NCBI GenBank assembly: GCA_903857865.1
Contig: CAIOGO010000020.1
Location: 107,064-171,063, forward strand
Direction: 5' to 3'
DNA from: an uncultured bacterium
GTDB lineage: Bacteria > Bipolaricaulota > Bipolaricaulia > UBA7950 > UBA9294
DNA length: 64,000 nucleotides
Numbering within the stretch: position 1 is the stretch's first letter; each line of letters starts with the position of its first letter. The notes under the pieces are model-generated. The model was given only the letters and a program-made list of their open reading frames with translations. It ran no database searches and had not been told where the DNA came from. The translations under genes and the position numbers were made by a program. Positions 51,865-61,464 of this stretch are shown here, one piece after another.

Positions 51865-54800
51865 TCACGGGGTGATGAGCACGGGCATCAAGAGAGCCTG
51901 CCCTTCGCCGTACACGATCCAGAATAGGTGTACTCCGGGCGTGACGCCGCCGGTGCCGATGTCGAGGACGTACTCGTCTCCCGCTTTCGCATGACCGGAG
52001 AAGGTGCTGGCGGACAGACCCAGGCCGCCGCCCGCTCCCGCCGCGAGGTCGAGGCCCGGCCGGGTCGTGATGATCCACGGCCACCCGGTCGTCCTCCGGT
52101 TCTCACGTGACAGCGAGAAGCTCACCGCTAGAGGCGCGCCGGCGCGAAGAGCCACGGGCTCCATGCCGGTCTGTTCGTAGAGAGCCTCGAGTTCCGGCGA
52201 GTTAGGCGCTCCAGGCGTCGCGCGGAGAGGATGCTTCTGCGCGTCCTCCCCTCGCGTGACGACGCCCATGTTCGTGCTCCAGTTCTCCGCGACATCGGGG
52301 CCGAGAGGATCCACTCGTTCCATCGATCCGAAGGTGCTTCTGTTCCCAGCGGCCCACTCATCGCTCCCGATGTTGGACGCGTTCGCCGTGTCGACGACGT
52401 CCCCACGATCGTCCACCAGCATGATCACCTCGCCGAGATCGGAGAGGGCGAGCATGGGCGATTGGGTGGCGTCGTAGACCATGTCAGATGCCACATCGCT
52501 GACGACCTCTTCTCGCGTGCGCTCGAGAACGAAGTAGCCACGCGTTTCCGGGTTCGGGTCATACGATATCTGCCACAGGAGGCCGCTCGGGTCGTTCGTC
52601 GACACGAGAACCCCAGACGTCTCGTCTTCCGTCTCGGCATCGCACGCCGAGACGGAAGACGCGGCAAGGACCCCGGAAAGTTCGACGGTCTTCCAGATGT
52701 AGTCCTCCGGGGTCACGGGGCGTGTCCGTCTCCACTGCAAAGTCCATCCTGTCAGATCGACGGGCGCGGTTCCAAGGTTGCGCAGCTCGATCCACTCGTC
52801 CTCGGCATCCGCCGCGGTTCCCGCCCACGCGACTTCGCTGATGATCACCTTGCCATCGCAAGAGGAGCCCGACGCCGCGCCTCCGCCGCCCGCGACGCCC
52901 GCCACTCCCACGGTGACCGCACCCGTAGTAGTCAGTCCTTGGGGGTCCGCCACGGTGTAGCTGAAGGAATCGGTTCCCACGAATCCAGCGTCCGGCGTGT
53001 ACAGGACTCCGGTTCCCTGGTTGGCCACCATACCGTGGAGAGGTTGCGTGAACGAGACCACGGCGAGCGCGTCGCCGTCCTCATCCCTGTCGTTCGCCAG
53101 CACGGGGATCGAGATCGGAACGTCCATATCGGTCGTCGCGCTGTCATCCTGTGCCGTCGGCGCATCGTTCATCGAGACGACGACCACCATGACGCTCGCC
53201 GTCGCTGTGCCGCCGCGTCCGTCGGACACCGTGTACGCGAAGAGGTCGACTCCGCTCCATCCCGCCGCCGGCGTGTACGTGATGGCCGCGCCGTCGCGGA
53301 CCGCGAAGCCTGCGGAAGGCTTCGTGATGGACTCCACTCGGAGAACGTCCCCGTCGGGGTCTAGGTCGTTCAGCAGCACGGGAATCCCCACCGGCATATC
53401 CTCGTCCGTGACACCGCTGTCGTCGCGAGCGACAGGAGCCTGATTGGCGGCAGCGACGGACATGGTCACGCTGGCCGTTGCTACGCCGCCATTCCCGTCG
53501 GACACGGTGTACGAGAACGTGTCCACGCCGTGGAATCCGGCGTCCGGAATGTACGAAATGCCCGTCCGGCTGTTGAGCAGAGTGCCGTGGGCCGGGTTCC
53601 CGATCGACTGGACGAGCAGGAAGTCGCCGTCCGGATCGCTGTCGTTCTGCAGAACCTCAATCATCAGCATGGCACCCTCGCTGGTGACGGCGCTGTCGTC
53701 CTGAGCGGCCGGACCGTGATTCGCGTGAACGACCGCGACCGAGACCTGCGCGGTGTCCGTCCCTCCTCGCCCATCCGCCACGGTGTACGCGAAGCTGTCG
53801 GTGCCACTGAATCCGGCACTCGGGATGTACGTCACCTCAGTCCTCCCATTCACGACAATGCCGTGGAAAGGCAGGGTCACTGCCTGGACCGTTAACCCAT
53901 CGCCGTCTGGGTCCCGGTCGTTGCTCAGCACGGCGATGCTCACGACTCCGTCCTCGTCAATCGTCGCGCTGTCGTCCTGCGCGACGGGGACGTCGTTCAC
54001 CGCGACGATGGTCACCGTGACGGTTGCCACTGCAGTGCCCCCGTTCCCGTCCGCCAGCGTGTAGGTGAAGGCGTCTTCACCAGAGTAGTTCGGAGCGGGA
54101 GAGTAGATAATGGCAGATCCGCTCCGGATCGTCGCGCCGTGAAGCGGCTGTGAGTTGGACTCGATGGTCAAGGAATCCCCGTCCGGATCCGAGTCATTGG
54201 CAAGGACGGGGATCGTAACCGGGGTGTCTTCGAGGGTCGAGATGCGGTCGCCCACGGCGATCGGAAGGTTGTTCACGCTCGCCACATCGACGGTGACGAG
54301 AGCCGGGGCGCTTCCTCCCTGACCGTCGATGACGACGTAGGTAAAGCTGTCGACACCATGGAAACCCGGCGCGGGCGCGTAGATGACCGTAGCCCCGCTG
54401 ATCTCCGCCGCCCCGCTGGCCGGCGAGGACACCGATTGGATGGTGAGGAGGTCGCCGTCGGAGTCGCTGTCGTTCGAGAGGACAGGAATCACGACCGAAG
54501 CATCCTCATCGGTCGACGCGCTGTCATCATGAGCCAGAGGCGCATGATTGACGGCAGCAATCGTGATCGTGATCGTCGCGCTCGCCGTCCCTCCGCGCCC
54601 GTCCGACACGGTGTACGTGAACGCATCGGCACCGTGGAAGCCTCTGTTCGGGCTGTAGGTCGCGCTCGTTCCGCTCTTCGTAAGCGATCCGTTGCCGGGC
54701 TGCGTCACGGACTGGAGCATGAGCGTGTCCCCGTCAGGATCGGTGTCGTTGGCGAGAAGCGAGATCGTCACCGGAGCGTCCTCGCCCGTCGCCACGCTGC

Positions 54801-57321
54801 CGCCGCGAGCCACGGGTGGATGGTTCACCGTAGCCACGTTGACCGTGACACGAGCTGCCGCAGTTCCTCCCTGTCCATCGGCGACGACGTACGTGAAGCT
54901 GTCAACGCCGTGGAATCCCAGGATAGGCGCGTAGCTCACGACCGAGCCGCGGATCTCCGCCGTCCCGTTGGCCGGCGATGACAGCGATTGGATGGTGATG
55001 AGGTCGCCATCGGGATCGCTGTCATTCTCGAGAACGGCAATCGTCACGGCGACGTCTTCGTCGGTGGACGCACTGTCATCCTGAGCCAACGGCTCGTCGT
55101 TGACGGCAGCGACGACGATCGTGAGGGTCGCGCTCGCTGTCCCGCCATGTCCGTCCGAGGCCGTGTACGTGAACGCATCGACGCCGTAGAAGTCGCTGTT
55201 CGGGGTGTAGGTTGCCATCGTTCCGCTCGTCGTGACCGCTCCGTGGTCGGGCTGCGTCACGGATTCGAGGGTGAGGAGATCTCCGTCCGGATCCGTGTCG
55301 TTGTCGAGGACGGAGATCGAGAGCGCGACGTCTTCGTCCGTGAACACCGTGCCGCCCTGAGCCTGCGGTTGGTCGTTGATCGAGGCGACGGTGACGGTGA
55401 CGACCGCGCTCGACGCCCCTCCGACACCGTCTGATGCGGTGTACGTGAACGTGTCGACGCCGTGGAAGTTGCCATTCGGAGTGTAGGTCACACTCGTCCC
55501 GTGACTCGCCACCGAGCCGTTCTCTGGCTGCGTCACAGACTCGACCGCAAGGACATCCCCGTCGGGATCGCTGTCGTTGGCGAGGACGGAGACCGTGACG
55601 GCGACGTCCTCGTTCGTCGACGCGCTGTCGGCCTGGGCGATCGGATCGTCGTTGACGGAGGCGACGCGGACCGTGACCGCGGCGCTCGCTGTCCCTCCAT
55701 GTCCGTCCGACGCCGAGTAGGTGAACGTATCGATCCCGCAGAAGTTGGGATCTGGCGCATACTGGATTCTGGTGCCGAGGTTCGATACCCGCCCGTTCGC
55801 CGGGTCACTCGCCCAATCCACCGACAAGGAATCCCCATCCGGATCGCTGTCGTTCGCCAGAACGTCGATCGCAACCGACGCATCTTCCTGGGTTGCCGCC
55901 TCGTCGGCAGTCGCCAGCGGCGCGTCGTTCGTCGGACTGATGACGAGGCTCACCGCAGCTACGTTCGAGTCCTTGAAGGTGTCGTTCGCCACATAGGTGA
56001 ACGCATCGTCCCGGGTCTCCGTGCCGTCGTGGACGTAGACGAACGAGCCGTCGGAGTGCAGAGTCAATGTGCCGTGATGAACACCCGAGACGAGGACAGC
56101 CATGAGGGGATTCCCCGGCGTGTCCTTGTCATTCGCGAGCACGCCGCGGGCAGGGACGCTGAGAGCTCCGCCCTCCGCGGCGTTGTAGAGGTCGTCGATC
56201 GCCAGGGGCGGGTCGTTGCACAGCACCGACACAGTGACTCGAGCCGGATTCGACGTGGCCCCGTCATCGTCTCGGATCGTGTACTCGAAAGAGTCGTCGC
56301 CGCATCCTCCCGCCGCAGGCGTGTACGTCACGACTCCCGTTCTCGGATGGACGCTCAAGGAGCCGGATCTCGGATCCTGGGAGATCGAGATCGACTCAAG
56401 ATCGAGCGCCCCATCGGCGTCACGGTCGTTGGCTGCGACGTTGATCGCGATGGCTGTCCGCTCGTCGGTCGTGGCACTGTCGTTGCTCGCTACGGGCGAT
56501 GCGTTGCCGACGACCGCGATTGCCACTCGAGCTTCGTTGGACGTCGCTCCATCGTCGTCACGAACGGTGTACCGGAACGAATCTTCACCGCTTGCCCCAT
56601 GCGTGGGAACGTACGTCACCGTGCCCATCGTCGGATCCAAGCTCGCCGAACCGGACGCGGGCGCCTGCGTGATGGTCACCGTCGTGCGATTCAGGGTTCC
56701 ATCGTCGTCTCTGTCGTTTGCCAAGACGTCGATCCGCACGGACTCGTTCTCGTTCGTGCTCACGCGGTCGTCCAGGGCGCTAGGAGGCGTGTTCTCCGCA
56801 GCCATCTTCTCTCCTGGACCCGAGATGGGTTCCGCCACCGTCGCGTCCTTCCCCGCCTTCACGCCGATGCGAGTCGGGATCACGCTGTGCCAACCATCAA
56901 GGGTGAACGACACGGCGCGAGCCTCGTTGTCCTTGTAGCCGCCGTCGAACTTGAGCCCGTAGACGCCCGTCGTCGGGTCGGTGTTGACCTCGTATCGCTC
57001 CGAGCAACTGACGACGTTCGACCTTCCCAAGAACGACGAGTCGAACCCAAGCACCCAATGGCTGAGTGCGGGCTTCCTGCCCGAGGTCACGCTGTACGAC
57101 CACGTCGATGTGCCGTCGCTGTTGTACGTGACCCCTCGAAACTCGAACGTATGGTCGCCCACTTGCAGGACGTCGCTTGCCGACACCGCAATGCTCAACC
57201 CGAGCACCACGAACGCGAGCGTCAGCCTGCTCCACCAAGAAACTCGGGAGGCTCTCATCCGTTCCGAATCGTGCCGTTCTGATCCCTTGCGCGTCGTCTC
57301 TCGGCCCCGCTGCACGAACAT
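51865..57321 (-). CDS. Giant secreted cadherin-like repeat protein with C-terminal lamin-tail domain
   Basis: An 1,818-residue surface protein. The start at 57321 follows GGGAGG; a signal peptide (about residues 22-48) comes first, then an unrecognised domain (50-170, SHWVLGFDSSFLG). Fourteen cadherin-like repeats of about 93 residues run from about 180 to 1478, each with the D-D-S...NDSDPDGD calcium-binding signature; the third is of VCBS type. A lamin-tail domain (about 1485-1680) and a C-terminal beta domain follow. No sortase or PEP-CTERM sorting signal is visible. The likely role is calcium-stabilised adhesion or matrix formation. Expression should be set by the c-di-GMP riboswitch in its leader. 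Confidence 0.88.
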   Translation of the reverse strand: MFVQRGRETTRKGSERHDSERMRASRVSWWSRLTLAFVVLGLSIAVSASDVLQVGDHTFEFRGVTYNSDGTSTWSYSVTSGRKPALSHWVLGFDSSFLGRSNVVSCSERYEVNTDPTTGVYGLKFDGGYKDNEARAVSFTLDGWHSVIPTRIGVKAGKDATVAEPISGPGEKMAAENTPPSALDDRVSTNENESVRIDVLANDRDDDGTLNRTTVTITQAPASGSASLDPTMGTVTYVPTHGASGEDSFRYTVRDDDGATSNEARVAIAVVGNASPVASNDSATTDERTAIAINVAANDRDADGALDLESISISQDPRSGSLSVHPRTGVVTYTPAAGGCGDDSFEYTIRDDDGATSNPARVTVSVLCNDPPLAIDDLYNAAEGGALSVPARGVLANDKDTPGNPLMAVLVSGVHHGTLTLHSDGSFVYVHDGTETRDDAFTYVANDTFKDSNVAAVSLVISPTNDAPLATADEAATQEDASVAIDVLANDSDPDGDSLSVDWASDPANGRVSNLGTRIQYAPDPNFCGIDTFTYSASDGHGGTASAAVTVRVASVNDDPIAQADSASTNEDVAVTVSVLANDSDPDGDVLAVESVTQPENGSVASHGTSVTYTPNGNFHGVDTFTYTASDGVGGASSAVVTVTVASINDQPQAQGGTVFTDEDVALSISVLDNDTDPDGDLLTLESVTQPDHGAVTTSGTMATYTPNSDFYGVDAFTYTASDGHGGTASATLTIVVAAVNDEPLAQDDSASTDEDVAVTIAVLENDSDPDGDLITIQSLSSPANGTAEIRGSVVSYAPILGFHGVDSFTYVVADGQGGTAAARVTVNVATVNHPPVARGGSVATGEDAPVTISLLANDTDPDGDTLMLQSVTQPGNGSLTKSGTSATYSPNRGFHGADAFTYTVSDGRGGTASATITITIAAVNHAPLAHDDSASTDEDASVVIPVLSNDSDSDGDLLTIQSVSSPASGAAEISGATVIYAPAPGFHGVDSFTYVVIDGQGGSAPALVTVDVASVNNLPIAVGDRISTLEDTPVTIPVLANDSDPDGDSLTIESNSQPLHGATIRSGSAIIYSPAPNYSGEDAFTYTLADGNGGTAVATVTVTIVAVNDVPVAQDDSATIDEDGVVSIAVLSNDRDPDGDGLTVQAVTLPFHGIVVNGRTEVTYIPSAGFSGTDSFAYTVADGRGGTDTAQVSVAVVHANHGPAAQDDSAVTSEGAMLMIEVLQNDSDPDGDFLLVQSIGNPAHGTLLNSRTGISYIPDAGFHGVDTFSYTVSDGNGGVATASVTMSVAAANQAPVARDDSGVTDEDMPVGIPVLLNDLDPDGDVLRVESITKPSAGFAVRDGAAITYTPAAGWSGVDLFAYTVSDGRGGTATASVMVVVVSMNDAPTAQDDSATTDMDVPISIPVLANDRDEDGDALAVVSFTQPLHGMVANQGTGVLYTPDAGFVGTDSFSYTVADPQGLTTTGAVTVGVAGVAGGGGAASGSSCDGKVIISEVAWAGTAADAEDEWIELRNLGTAPVDLTGWTLQWRRTRPVTPEDYIWKTVELSGVLAASSVSACDAETEDETSGVLVSTNDPSGLLWQISYDPNPETRGYFVLERTREEVVSDVASDMVYDATQSPMLALSDLGEVIMLVDDRGDVVDTANASNIGSDEWAAGNRSTFGSMERVDPLGPDVAENWSTNMGVVTRGEDAQKHPLRATPGAPNSPELEALYEQTGMEPVALRAGAPLAVSFSLSRENRRTTGWPWIITTRPGLDLAAGAGGGLGLSASTFSGHAKAGDEYVLDIGTGGVTPGVHLFWIVYGEGQALLMPVLITP
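52887..56782 (-). repeat. Fourteen tandem cadherin-like coding repeats
   Basis: About 280 bases per unit. Units 4 to 14 are more alike than units 1 to 3, suggesting recent expansion in the middle and C-terminal part. Boundaries are estimated from the protein repeats. Confidence 0.75.
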
Positions 57322-57345
57322 GAAACCTCCCTGTGGGCGTCCCAG

Positions 57346-57427
57346 CCGGCAACCTGCTGCCTCCACGAAGGAGGCAGTAGGCCTCAGGCTCTGGGCTTTG
57401 CGTCCCACCCTTGCGAGTGGCCTGCCC
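57346..57427 (-). promoter_or_regulatory. c-di-GMP-I (GEMM-I) riboswitch aptamer
   Basis: On the minus strand the leader of the giant surface protein gene reads GGGCAGGCC, then a six-base stem closed by a GCAA (GNRA) tetraloop, then the hallmark GGGACGCAAAGCC (ACGCAAAGCC at 57394-57403), an eight-base second stem (57357-57364 with 57370-57377) and the closing CAGGTTGCCGG. Order, spacing and tetraloop match the Vibrio cholerae Vc2 aptamer almost base for base in the conserved core. The ribosome site GGGAGG lies about 15 bases downstream, so control of translation is likely. Confidence 0.92.
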
Positions 57428-57686
57428 TTCCCAGCCCGAGGTAGGTGATCGCCGCCGCCTCACATCCCATGACGACTGTACCTCCTCGCGCCCAGACGCA
57501 GACGCGGTATCGGCCGGCGACCGGATCATTCTAGCAGGTCGCAGGGGACAGGCACGGCGGGTCCGGAGGCCCAAGACGCTGGGTCGGCCTCCGGGGGCGG
57601 AGAACAAGCCCTCTGCGTCCCAACGCAGGGGCGTCCCGGTGCTTGCTTCTGGACTCGCCACGCAGCGGGATGATAGAGTGATCGCA
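57428..57686. other. Divergent region between riboswitch and the beta-helix gene
   Basis: About 260 bases with the promoters of both flanking genes. On the plus strand there is a perfect nine-base stem (CCGGAGGCC 57563-57571 with GGCCTCCGG 57586-57594) in the probable leader of the beta-helix gene. No second ACGCAAAGCC core is present, so that leader is not a c-di-GMP-I riboswitch. Confidence 0.5.
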
Positions 57687-60155
57687 ATGACCCTGACTCG
57701 ACGCAAACGTGCCGTGGCGCTCCTCGGACTCCTGCTTGTCGCTGCGGGAGCCTTCGGGATCGTCCGCTATGCTCTCTTTCCTCCCGAGCGCATTCCGCGC
57801 GGCGCTATCGTCGTTCCTCGCGACGTCGCCACGCTGGACGCAGCGCTTCGGCGCGTCGAGCCTGGAGGAACCATCGTCCTCGACACCCACGAACAGGCCC
57901 TGGTCGGTCCCGTCGTCATCGACGTTCCCGAGGTCACCATCTGCTCGTTCGGGCCCCCGGCGCGCGTGACGGCGCAGGGCAATGCCCCCGCGCTCGCCAT
58001 CCGAGCAAACGATGTCACGGTTCGAAACCTGGAGATTTCGGCCGAGAGCGTCGGCCTGGTCATCGCGTCGTCGCGCTGCCGTGTGGAGGATCTCACCGTC
58101 CGTGGGACTCCCGTGGCCGTGCGCCTTTCTGACGCACGAGACTGCACGCTCGATCGGATCGACATCAGTGGCGGCAACATCGGGGTGGAACTCTCTTCCT
58201 CCAGCGGGACCGAGATCCGAGCGGTGGCCGTGAGCGATGTCGCGGAGGTGGGGATCCGCGCTATTGGATCCTGGGGCAACATGCTGGAACGGATCACGGT
58301 CGCGCGCGCTCCTGTCGGGATCTCCGTTGAGGACGGGTCGAGGGAGACCCTCCTTGCCGATTGCCACGTGGAGGATTGCGGCACGTCCGGCGTCATCATT
58401 CGCGGCTCGAACGACATCACGCTCGCGAGCAGCATCGTGCGGGATGCTCCCGTTGGCATCGCCCTCGACCGAGCGACCGGGTGCGAGATCCGCGGCTGCA
58501 CCATCGAACGCCCCGCGGTCACCGGCGTGTCTCTCGAACGATCGGTGCAGAATCGCGTGCAGAACACCGTGATCCGAACTCCGGGGCAGTTCGGCCTTCG
58601 CTTGTCCGAGAGTTCCGAGAACGCGTTCTCGGACAACGAGATTCGCGGCGGCTCGGCCGTGGCGATCGATCTCACCGCAAGCAATCGCAACCTCGTGATG
58701 CGAAACGAGATCACCGACACGGCCGTCGGGATCCGGATCGACGGAAGCGAGGCCTTTCGCATCCTGAGGAACACGATCGCCAGTCGGCGCGTCGGGCTCG
58801 TCTTGGAAGGCGCAGACGGTGGCCGCATCCTCGACAACCGGGTGACGGGCGGAGTCTTCGGCATCGCGATCGTTTCCTCAACGGGGAACGTGGTCCTCCG
58901 GAATCGGGTCGAGGATCAGGCGGAGAGCGCGTTCGCGCTGCTTGGCGGCTCGACGAGCACGACGCTCGCGGAGAACAGGGCGACTCGCTGCGGCACCGGA
59001 ATCCTGATCGCGGCGTCATCGCGCAGCGACCTGCTCGACAATGTCGTCGTCGGAAACGACGTCGGCGTGCTCCTCCTCCGTTCGGGTCCCGAACTGCGGC
59101 TGGAGGGCAACCGCATCGAGCGGAACGCCGTGGGGTTGCGCCAGGCCGACCCGTCGGACGATCCGCCAGCTCGCCTCGATCTCCTCTACGCGGACATTCC
59201 GGCGGACGTCGGCGGGATCTCTCCGCCGATTCTCGCGAACAACACGTTCTCCGGAAACCGAACCCTCGACGTCGAGAACAACGCCGCGTCGCCGCTCTAT
59301 GCCGCGGGCAACCAGTGGGGTGACGGACCGAGCGGCGGCATCGCGGAGGCCCTCGTCTCCCCGGATGTCAACTTGCTGGAGTCGGCGTGGAAGGGCACGA
59401 TCGCGGTCGGAACGGAGGCGAGCGATCTACAAGAGATCCTCGGTGATATCCTTCGAATCGCCCTCGCTCGTGCGGGTTATCGCGTGGTCGATCTGATCGG
59501 CATGGGAAGCGCTCTGCTCGTTCAGGATGCCGCCAAGGCCGGCGACATCGACCTCATCACTCTGGAGTCTGCAGGCGTTGGGGCACCCAACGCCGACGCC
59601 GGGCTCACAAGCTTCGTCCTTCCCGCCCGGGCGGGTTGGGTCGCCGTGGTCCCTCAGGGCGTCGCGGACCGGTTGCCGGAACGCAGCTTGTCCGCGCTCG
59701 CTGCCATGCTCGGCGGCGACGGTCAGGCCCTCCTCTGGGCGGTCCCCCAGGCGGTCGGCGAGCCTGCCGTTGCGGCCCTTCGCGACGCCTACGGCCTCGG
59801 CGGACAGGTTCGCGCCGTCGTCTGGGCGAAGACGCTGGCCGAGGCCGAGGCCCTCCTCACATTCGGGGCTGCGGAGTTCGCGCTTCTCGAAAGCCTCGAG
59901 GAGACGGTGACGCTGTCCGGCTTCGTCACCCTCGAGGACGATCGTCACATCCTGCCGTCTGAAACCCTGGTCGTCATGGTGCGAACCGGGCTCCTTGCGG
60001 ACCACCCGGATGTCGGGGACGTGTTGTCTCGCCTCGTGGCGCGGCTCACCCCGCTCGCTCTCCGCGATCTGATGAGCCGCGTCCGTCTCTTGGACCGAAG
60101 TCCGGAGGCCGTGGCGATGGACTTCCTGGCACAGGAAGGGCTGCTTGCTGAGTAA
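57687..60155 (+). CDS. NosD-like parallel beta-helix fused to an OpuAC-type solute-binding domain
   Basis: An 822-residue exported or membrane-anchored protein. One N-terminal hydrophobic segment (about 8-28) is followed by a right-handed beta-helix (about 90-540) with NosD/CASH-type coils such as GNRIERNAVGLR and NRVTGGVFGIAIVSSTGN. The C-terminal ~260 residues resemble periplasmic glycine betaine/choline-binding proteins (VGTEASDLQEILGDILRIAL, IDLITLESAG). No permease or ATPase is encoded beside it, so it may sense or bind rather than import. The start at 57687 lies 16 bases downstream of a -10-like TGATAG. The next gene begins 16 bases after its stop. Confidence 0.8.
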   Translation: MTLTRRKRAVALLGLLLVAAGAFGIVRYALFPPERIPRGAIVVPRDVATLDAALRRVEPGGTIVLDTHEQALVGPVVIDVPEVTICSFGPPARVTAQGNAPALAIRANDVTVRNLEISAESVGLVIASSRCRVEDLTVRGTPVAVRLSDARDCTLDRIDISGGNIGVELSSSSGTEIRAVAVSDVAEVGIRAIGSWGNMLERITVARAPVGISVEDGSRETLLADCHVEDCGTSGVIIRGSNDITLASSIVRDAPVGIALDRATGCEIRGCTIERPAVTGVSLERSVQNRVQNTVIRTPGQFGLRLSESSENAFSDNEIRGGSAVAIDLTASNRNLVMRNEITDTAVGIRIDGSEAFRILRNTIASRRVGLVLEGADGGRILDNRVTGGVFGIAIVSSTGNVVLRNRVEDQAESAFALLGGSTSTTLAENRATRCGTGILIAASSRSDLLDNVVVGNDVGVLLLRSGPELRLEGNRIERNAVGLRQADPSDDPPARLDLLYADIPADVGGISPPILANNTFSGNRTLDVENNAASPLYAAGNQWGDGPSGGIAEALVSPDVNLLESAWKGTIAVGTEASDLQEILGDILRIALARAGYRVVDLIGMGSALLVQDAAKAGDIDLITLESAGVGAPNADAGLTSFVLPARAGWVAVVPQGVADRLPERSLSALAAMLGGDGQALLWAVPQAVGEPAVAALRDAYGLGGQVRAVVWAKTLAEAEALLTFGAAEFALLESLEETVTLSGFVTLEDDRHILPSETLVVMVRTGLLADHPDVGDVLSRLVARLTPLALRDLMSRVRLLDRSPEAVAMDFLAQEGLLAE

Positions 60156-60171
60156 GGAAGAAGGAGATCCG

Positions 60172-61464
60172 ATGGACGAGAGGAAGACGGCCGATCGGCG
60201 GCCCGGCTGGCCGATCCGGCTTCGATCTTGGGTTCGGTACGGAACGGGCCTTCGGGCGAAGCTCATCGTCCTAGTGTTGGCGATCGCGTGCCTGGTGGTC
60301 GGCGCGCTGTATTGGTTCTCCTACAGTTCCATGCGCACGTTGATCGTGTCGATCTACGAGCAGAGGGCGCGAAGCGTCGCCGCCATCATCTCCAAGTCGA
60401 TCCAGGAGAAGGACTACATCCTGTACTACTCGGAGGAGTTGAACGCCGACATCGACCGCCTCCTCGAACGGTACGAGTCCGTCATCGGGATCACGGTCAT
60501 CGGCGTGACCGCGCGCGGCTTCGTCTCCATCGCCAGCACGGACCCGAGCCTCGTGGGATCGCTGGCCACCGCCGAGGAGCGCGATCGACTCGACGCGTTG
60601 CGGGAGGTGGACGTCGCCCCTGTGAAGCTGCGCGGCGCCTCGTATCTTCGCGCGCACGACCCGATCTTCTCCGGACCCGATCTCATCGGAGTCGTCGTCG
60701 TAGACATGTCTCTCGACGAGCAAGCGCAGGCCATCTCCCACCTCTCGTGGCGGTTCGGGGGCGCCTCCGTCCTTGGCTGCCTCTTGCTGGGGGGCTTTCT
60801 GTACCTCGCGATGCGAGGAATCGTGACGAGGCCCGTCGGTCAGTTGGCGGGGGCAATGGGTGCAGTCGCGCGGCGAAAGTACGACGTCGAGGCGAAGCAC
60901 CCGTTCCCCAGACTCCCCGGAACTCGCCTCAAGGACGAAGTCGCGCAACTCGTCGACGGCTTCAACTTAATGACCCGCGTGATCCACTCCCACGAGCAGG
61001 AACTGATGAAGCTCGTGGTGCTCGACGCGCTAACGGGAGCGTACACTGTCGACCATCTCCGAGCGGAGTTGGAGCGCGAGCTCTGCAAGACGCGCCGGTA
61101 CAAGCATCCAACGTCCGTTCTTGTCGTCGACATTCGAGGAGCCGAGACACGGCCGTCCCAAGACCAGGACAGCGTCTTGATCTCGACGGCCCGCTTCCTT
61201 GTCAGCAATCTCCGGAACGTGGATGTGTTGTTCCGCGTCGGCCCGTTCCGGTTCGCCTCGCTCTTGCCCGAGACGCCGCCCGCCGGAGCCGCCGTGGCCG
61301 CGGGGCGACTGCGAATCCAGGTCCCCGACGTCACCGCCCAGTACTCGTTCTCCGTCGCCCTAGACGTCCGGGTCATGGGGTGGGGAGAAGAGGGTGCTCC
61401 GGCAATTGACGAGGTCCTCAAGGACATCGCTGGCTCGGATGGCGCTCCTCGCGAAGAGACGTAG
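60172..61464 (+). CDS. HAMP receptor with degenerate GGDEF domain
   Basis: A 430-residue membrane receptor: TM1 at about 30-52, an extracytoplasmic sensor of Cache type (55-190), TM2 at about 195-215, HAMP (216-270) and a GGDEF-like domain from 280 (LVVLDALTGAYTVDHLRAEL). The active-site GGDEF is replaced by V-G-P-F-R-F (356-361), so cyclase activity is lost; it could be an inactive allosteric or protein-binding module. The ATG at 60172 follows AAGGAG, and its stop is next to the beta-helix protein gene upstream and a small membrane protein downstream, so the three form an operon. Confidence 0.85.
   Translation: MDERKTADRRPGWPIRLRSWVRYGTGLRAKLIVLVLAIACLVVGALYWFSYSSMRTLIVSIYEQRARSVAAIISKSIQEKDYILYYSEELNADIDRLLERYESVIGITVIGVTARGFVSIASTDPSLVGSLATAEERDRLDALREVDVAPVKLRGASYLRAHDPIFSGPDLIGVVVVDMSLDEQAQAISHLSWRFGGASVLGCLLLGGFLYLAMRGIVTRPVGQLAGAMGAVARRKYDVEAKHPFPRLPGTRLKDEVAQLVDGFNLMTRVIHSHEQELMKLVVLDALTGAYTVDHLRAELERELCKTRRYKHPTSVLVVDIRGAETRPSQDQDSVLISTARFLVSNLRNVDVLFRVGPFRFASLLPETPPAGAAVAAGRLRIQVPDVTAQYSFSVALDVRVMGWGEEGAPAIDEVLKDIAGSDGAPREET

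Follow-up and report, generated by a model that had tools for sequence, protein, structure and literature searches.

A diverged c-di-GMP-I aptamer preceding the gene for a giant Big_9/lamin-tail protein in an uncultured Bipolaricaulota bacterium

We analyzed a 64,000-nucleotide stretch of contig CAIOGO010000020.1 from an uncultured Bipolaricaulota bacterium (hereafter, the window). Its minus strand carries a gene for a giant secreted protein of 1818 aa, in which an extended signal peptide is followed by an N-terminal head of its own, 14 Big_9/cadherin-like repeats, a lamin-tail domain (35.9 bits vs. a cut-off of 34.3) and a conserved C-terminal domain. We infer a surface location and an adhesive role for this protein, and refer to it below as the adhesin. 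The gene starts at the ATG at 57321, a start supported by the identity of GGGAGGTTTCATG in the sister species G003, and an RNA aptamer ends 23 nt upstream on the same strand. The first-pass annotation had placed this aptamer directly 5′ of the ribosome site of the gene, and the coordinates agreed (P1 end at 57344, Shine-Dalgarno at 57331–57326). The features of the locus were as follows.

51865–57321, minus strand: gene for the giant secreted protein, 1818 aa (open reading frame; domain matches)
57326–57331, minus strand: Shine-Dalgarno GGGAGG, 4 nt 5′ of the ATG (sequence)
57345–57436, minus strand: c-di-GMP-I (GEMM-I) aptamer (RF01051, 41.4 bits; family model, 46.3 bits)
57344–57348, minus strand: 3′ strand of P1, CGGCU (sequence; family model)
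57349, minus strand: equivalent of C92, within GGUUGCC (family alignment)
57399, minus strand: equivalent of A47, the first A of CAAAGCC in ACGCAAAGCC (family alignment)
57405–57420, minus strand: first stem CCACUC/GGGUGG, capped by the GNRA loop GCAA (sequence; family model)
57421–57423, minus strand: AGG in place of AAA (family alignment)
57426, minus strand: specificity position 20 (Vc2 numbering), a G (family alignment)
57432–57436, minus strand: 5′ strand of P1, GGCUG, partner of CGGCU at 57348–57344 (sequence; family-model pairing)

The divergent neighbor at 57687–60155 (plus strand) encodes a protein that joins an OpuAC substrate-binding domain to a beta-helix of the NosD type, a seemingly unusual combination.

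An Rfam cmscan search of the whole window matched RF01051 over the full model length at 57436–57345 on the minus strand. The score was above the gathering score of 35 bits, bearing out the earlier proposal of a GEMM-I aptamer. The E-value was 1.1e-4 across all 4227 Rfam families and both strands, and 9e-7 for RF01051 taken singly with the host's 2.24-Mb genome as the search space. Against a family model, a covariance model made from aptamers of 39 relatives, the E-value was 3.5e-10 in 414 kb. Covariation supported the structure of this model, with 90% of cells paired vs. at most 48% when slid. That structure was the known core, imposed by hand on the family alignment in place of an RNAalifold consensus, which we dropped because it paired GGC with the 3′ GCC and not the known core helices. 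The c-di-GMP-I-GGC subclass (RF03167) was ruled out, at 37.4 bits vs. a cut-off of 59. A chance resemblance without homology to GEMM-I is hardly credible: the Rfam score lies only 6 bits above the cut-off, but the E-value under the family model contradicts chance, the closest aptamers are those in adhesin leaders of other genera, and both position and strand are right for the gene. We concluded that the leader contains a genuine c-di-GMP-I aptamer. The interval first given for it, 57346–57427, misses the P1 strands; 57344–57436 on the minus strand fits better.

Alignment to the model showed that the pocket residues G20, A47 and C92 and the long-range partners C44 and G83 are present, in Vc2 numbering that we take to apply by analogy to A47, C92 and the C44/G83 pair. 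The GNRA-capped first stem was found as described, CCACUC-GCAA-GGGUGG. The description of the aptamer as complete is borne out for the ligand contacts and the GNRA loop but is overstated for the whole: the first internal loop has AGG where AAA is near-invariant after GC, and the CGG/CCG segment of P2 is changed at two positions. A G20A change has been tied to cGAMP (PMC6274999); because position 20 is a G in the window, c-di-GMP is the expected ligand and not cGAMP, and the cGAMP-selective GEMM-Ib class was rejected on this residue. Geobacter has 3′,3′-cGAMP riboswitches of this class (G20A; PMC8835794, PMC6274999), which share the fold and family of the window aptamer and differ from it at this position.

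We examined 126 aptamers, using downstream open reading frames predicted by a simple script. Four of them lie 5′ of giant Big_9 genes: the window copy and those of G017, G004 and G023, three relatives that belong to two other genera. The aptamer precedes a 2312-aa frame in G017 (contig C18, gap of 25 nt) and a 2848-aa frame in G023 (C218, gap of 142 nt), and in both giants a lamin-tail domain is again C-terminal. In G004 (C86, gap of 24 nt) the contig stops before the gene end, and a lamin-tail end opens another contig of that genome. Many copies of the giant gene are broken inside the repeats by contig ends; among 33 family genomes, the N-terminal head of the window protein was found in 7 and the lamin-tail C-terminus in 24. 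A search with that head had suggested that no other species has the pairing, a result we rejected because giants with the same repeats, the lamin-tail end and other heads do have the aptamer. Of the 125 other aptamers, none is closer to the window's than the adhesin copies of G023 and G004, and the chance that both of these two nearest fall in the set of three is ~4e-4. Given this recurrence, and given that the nearest aptamers are adhesin copies, the gene and its aptamer were most likely inherited jointly across three genera, with the protein heads changing meanwhile.

A search for the same leader on orthologues had been proposed as a check, and its outcome was divided: the aptamer is present in G017, G004 and G023 but not in G003, and the leaders searched in G002, G015, G040, G007 and G020 had none 5′ of the orthologue. 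The leader of the sister species G003 is homologous to that of the window on both flanks, Shine-Dalgarno and ATG included, and the aptamer core between them is gone; the gene is divided between two contigs with an overlap of exactly 141 bases. The four aptamer-bearing adhesin leaders and the aptamer-less G003 leader form a natural series on riboswitch retention and loss.

We looked for a terminator-like site in the window leader and found none; with the Shine-Dalgarno 12 nt past P1, translation control is therefore the natural reading. In computed folding, the cost of opening the window Shine-Dalgarno was unchanged on forming the aptamer (4.7 vs. 4.6 kcal/mol). Across the 39 family leaders with a nearby Shine-Dalgarno, this site becomes easier to open by more than 1 kcal/mol in 13 once the aptamer forms, whereas in 4 it becomes hidden. 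The opening cost in the G023 adhesin leader falls from 8.3 to 2.2 kcal/mol on aptamer formation, and P1 overlaps the hairpin that hides the site. This G023 Shine-Dalgarno serves a short frame that directly follows the aptamer; the predicted start of the giant frame lies ~120 nt further on. The short frame (L167, reverse strand, 9615 downward), opened by the Shine-Dalgarno and an ATG, reads MKKHWAMW...; it could be a leader peptide or the frameshifted original start of the giant gene.

By analogy with the relatives and with known cases, the window switch would act in the ON direction. Diguanylate cyclases would raise c-di-GMP, which would clamp P1 and the P2/P3 core; the clamped aptamer would free the nearby Shine-Dalgarno and allow translation of the adhesin, with no terminator involved, and more adhesin would make a more adhesive cell. 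The opposite arrangement, a working OFF switch in which the ligand leaves a CCC/GGG hairpin over the Shine-Dalgarno and the adhesin is repressed, seems improbable to us. The GGG of the Shine-Dalgarno does pair with an upstream CCC in both computed states, and the 4 of 39 family leaders mentioned above compute as OFF; against this, the family trend is ON (13/39) and c-di-GMP normally favors adhesion. The known c-di-GMP-I adhesin switches are likewise ON (PMC4744006, PMC4933901).

Within the family, the window copy ranks with the most diverged of the full-length aptamers. Its family-model score was the lowest of any full-length aptamer in the set, and the lower scores belonged to truncated tandem partners and chance matches. 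Of the 19 near-invariant columns (at least 95% conserved), four are changed in the window aptamer; 99 of 121 relatives are changed at none of these, and a single one at four. The internal-loop AAA occurs in 121 of the 126 aptamers, and the AGG of the window in no other copy. This AAA and the CGG/CCG segment of P2 are near-invariant in relatives and lie outside Rfam's definition. The window aptamer was also the hardest full-length copy to fold: its folding cost was 12.9 kcal/mol vs. 6.9–9.3 in the three other adhesin leaders, and with the alignment's full set of pairs it came last of 133, because of a strong register-shifted rival hairpin, GGCCUACUGCCUCC/GGAGGCAGCAGGUU; these computed energies leave out tertiary contacts and ligand. 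The pairings in G017, G004 and G023 are better preserved than that of the window.

A relic could produce this pattern, that is, an ancestral control of the adhesin in a copy that no longer binds usefully and is being lost as in the sister species. Such a history would fit the weakest full-length copy of the family, with its unique AGG, its strong competing hairpin and no computed effect on the Shine-Dalgarno, and would also fit a G003 leader that is homologous except for the absent core. We nevertheless find it rather doubtful that the copy is a relic, for all recognized ligand contacts are retained and the score still exceeds Rfam's cut-off. Relative to the G023 aptamer, moreover, changes affect 3 of the 19 near-invariant columns vs. 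26 of 70 variable ones, which may be a weak sign of remaining constraint. We consider it reasonably probable, though well short of certain, that the leader holds an inherited c-di-GMP-I switch on a giant Big_9/lamin-tail adhesin, with c-di-GMP as the presumed bound ligand and translation turned ON; the switch is probably weakened in the window species.

The host's 2.24-Mb genome has seven c-di-GMP-I sites, nine GGDEF matches and nine HD-GYP-type matches, and no EAL or PilZ match was found in it. Sites of this class occur in at least 38 of the 40 genomes searched, the host's own included, with a maximum of at least 14 per genome, the tallies for relatives being lower bounds; among the matches listed, those in relatives lie mostly 5′ of predicted secreted or envelope proteins. 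The sole closed Bipolaricaulota genome described in detail was reported to be without flagella, pili and surface adhesin genes (PMC6092417). We suggest tentatively that an ancestral adhesin switch is being lost or re-tuned, such that it would be intact in other genera, weakly binding or altered in ligand here and deleted in the sister species; in the host genome, which has GGDEF and HD-GYP enzymes and no PilZ match, RNA would then carry much of the c-di-GMP output. About 2.8 kb from the adhesin gene and divergent from it, a HAMP/GGDEF protein is encoded at 60145–61464 of the window (plus strand); it reads FRVGPFRF at the site of the GGDEF motif, and is probably inactive as a cyclase.

Control of attachment proteins by c-di-GMP-I riboswitches is established (PMC4744006, PMC4933901, PMC6200980), so that the annotation was correct in calling c-di-GMP control of such surface proteins known from other bacteria (PMC4744006, PMC4933901). 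Its view that the pairing with a lamin-tail protein appears new also agrees with the literature searched, mainly open-access papers, in which we found none tying c-di-GMP-I to lamin-tail proteins or to Bipolaricaulota. One close parallel is Vc1 of gbpA in Vibrio cholerae (PMC4744006), where a c-di-GMP-I aptamer likewise stands in the leader of a secreted colonization/attachment protein, c-di-GMP raises expression, and there is, as here, no apparent terminator; Vc1 also lacks an apparent anti-Shine-Dalgarno. GbpA is a chitin-binding protein, however, whereas the window target is a giant repeat protein, and Vc1 is experimentally active. In Bacillus thuringiensis, Bc2 of cap (PMC4933901) likewise places a surface adhesion protein under a c-di-GMP-I switch and is of the ON type, the direction presumed here, but it works by transcription anti-termination, unlike the terminator-free window leader with its Shine-Dalgarno close to P1. 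The c-di-GMP riboswitch regulon of Clostridioides difficile (PMC6200980) resembles the present case in having one second messenger, many riboswitches and surface-related targets, and differs in phylum and in the targets themselves. The type of control is thus already known, and the target family, the phylum and the signs of weakening are apparently unreported; with this locus, the control of adhesins by c-di-GMP riboswitches would reach into an uncultured phylum.

Several other aptamers were observed. In one class of c-di-GMP-I aptamers the P3 loop contains the Shine-Dalgarno, and the start codon too falls within the aptamer (L206:411–494 and L208:369–451, both plus strand; also L211, L230, L039, L241 and a number of other loci in related genomes). 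The conserved 3′ end of this class codes for M-x-AGLPK, with which the proteins of a predicted secreted family present in 7 genomes begin; sensor and ribosome site would here form one RNA element, perhaps of greater novelty than the adhesin pairing. In many genomes a short (~50–75 nt) c-di-GMP-I-like unit lies from a few to ~35 nt 5′ of a full aptamer, before small secreted proteins (L008:1556–1612 with 1647–1737; L021, L026, L036, L037, L217, L219, L228, L238, L257 and L258); by eye, the L008 unit is without the CGG/CCG part of P2. Position 20 is a C at L008:1647–1737 (plus strand) and L260:3093–3184 (minus strand), in two species with the same small secreted protein downstream. In the host's own genome (C4, L010:2003–2100, minus strand), an aptamer with A20 (cGAMP-type) precedes the gene for a 109-aa protein, whose likeness by eye to an MshEN domain was discarded on finding no Pfam match, and a second aptamer, with G20, precedes the next gene.
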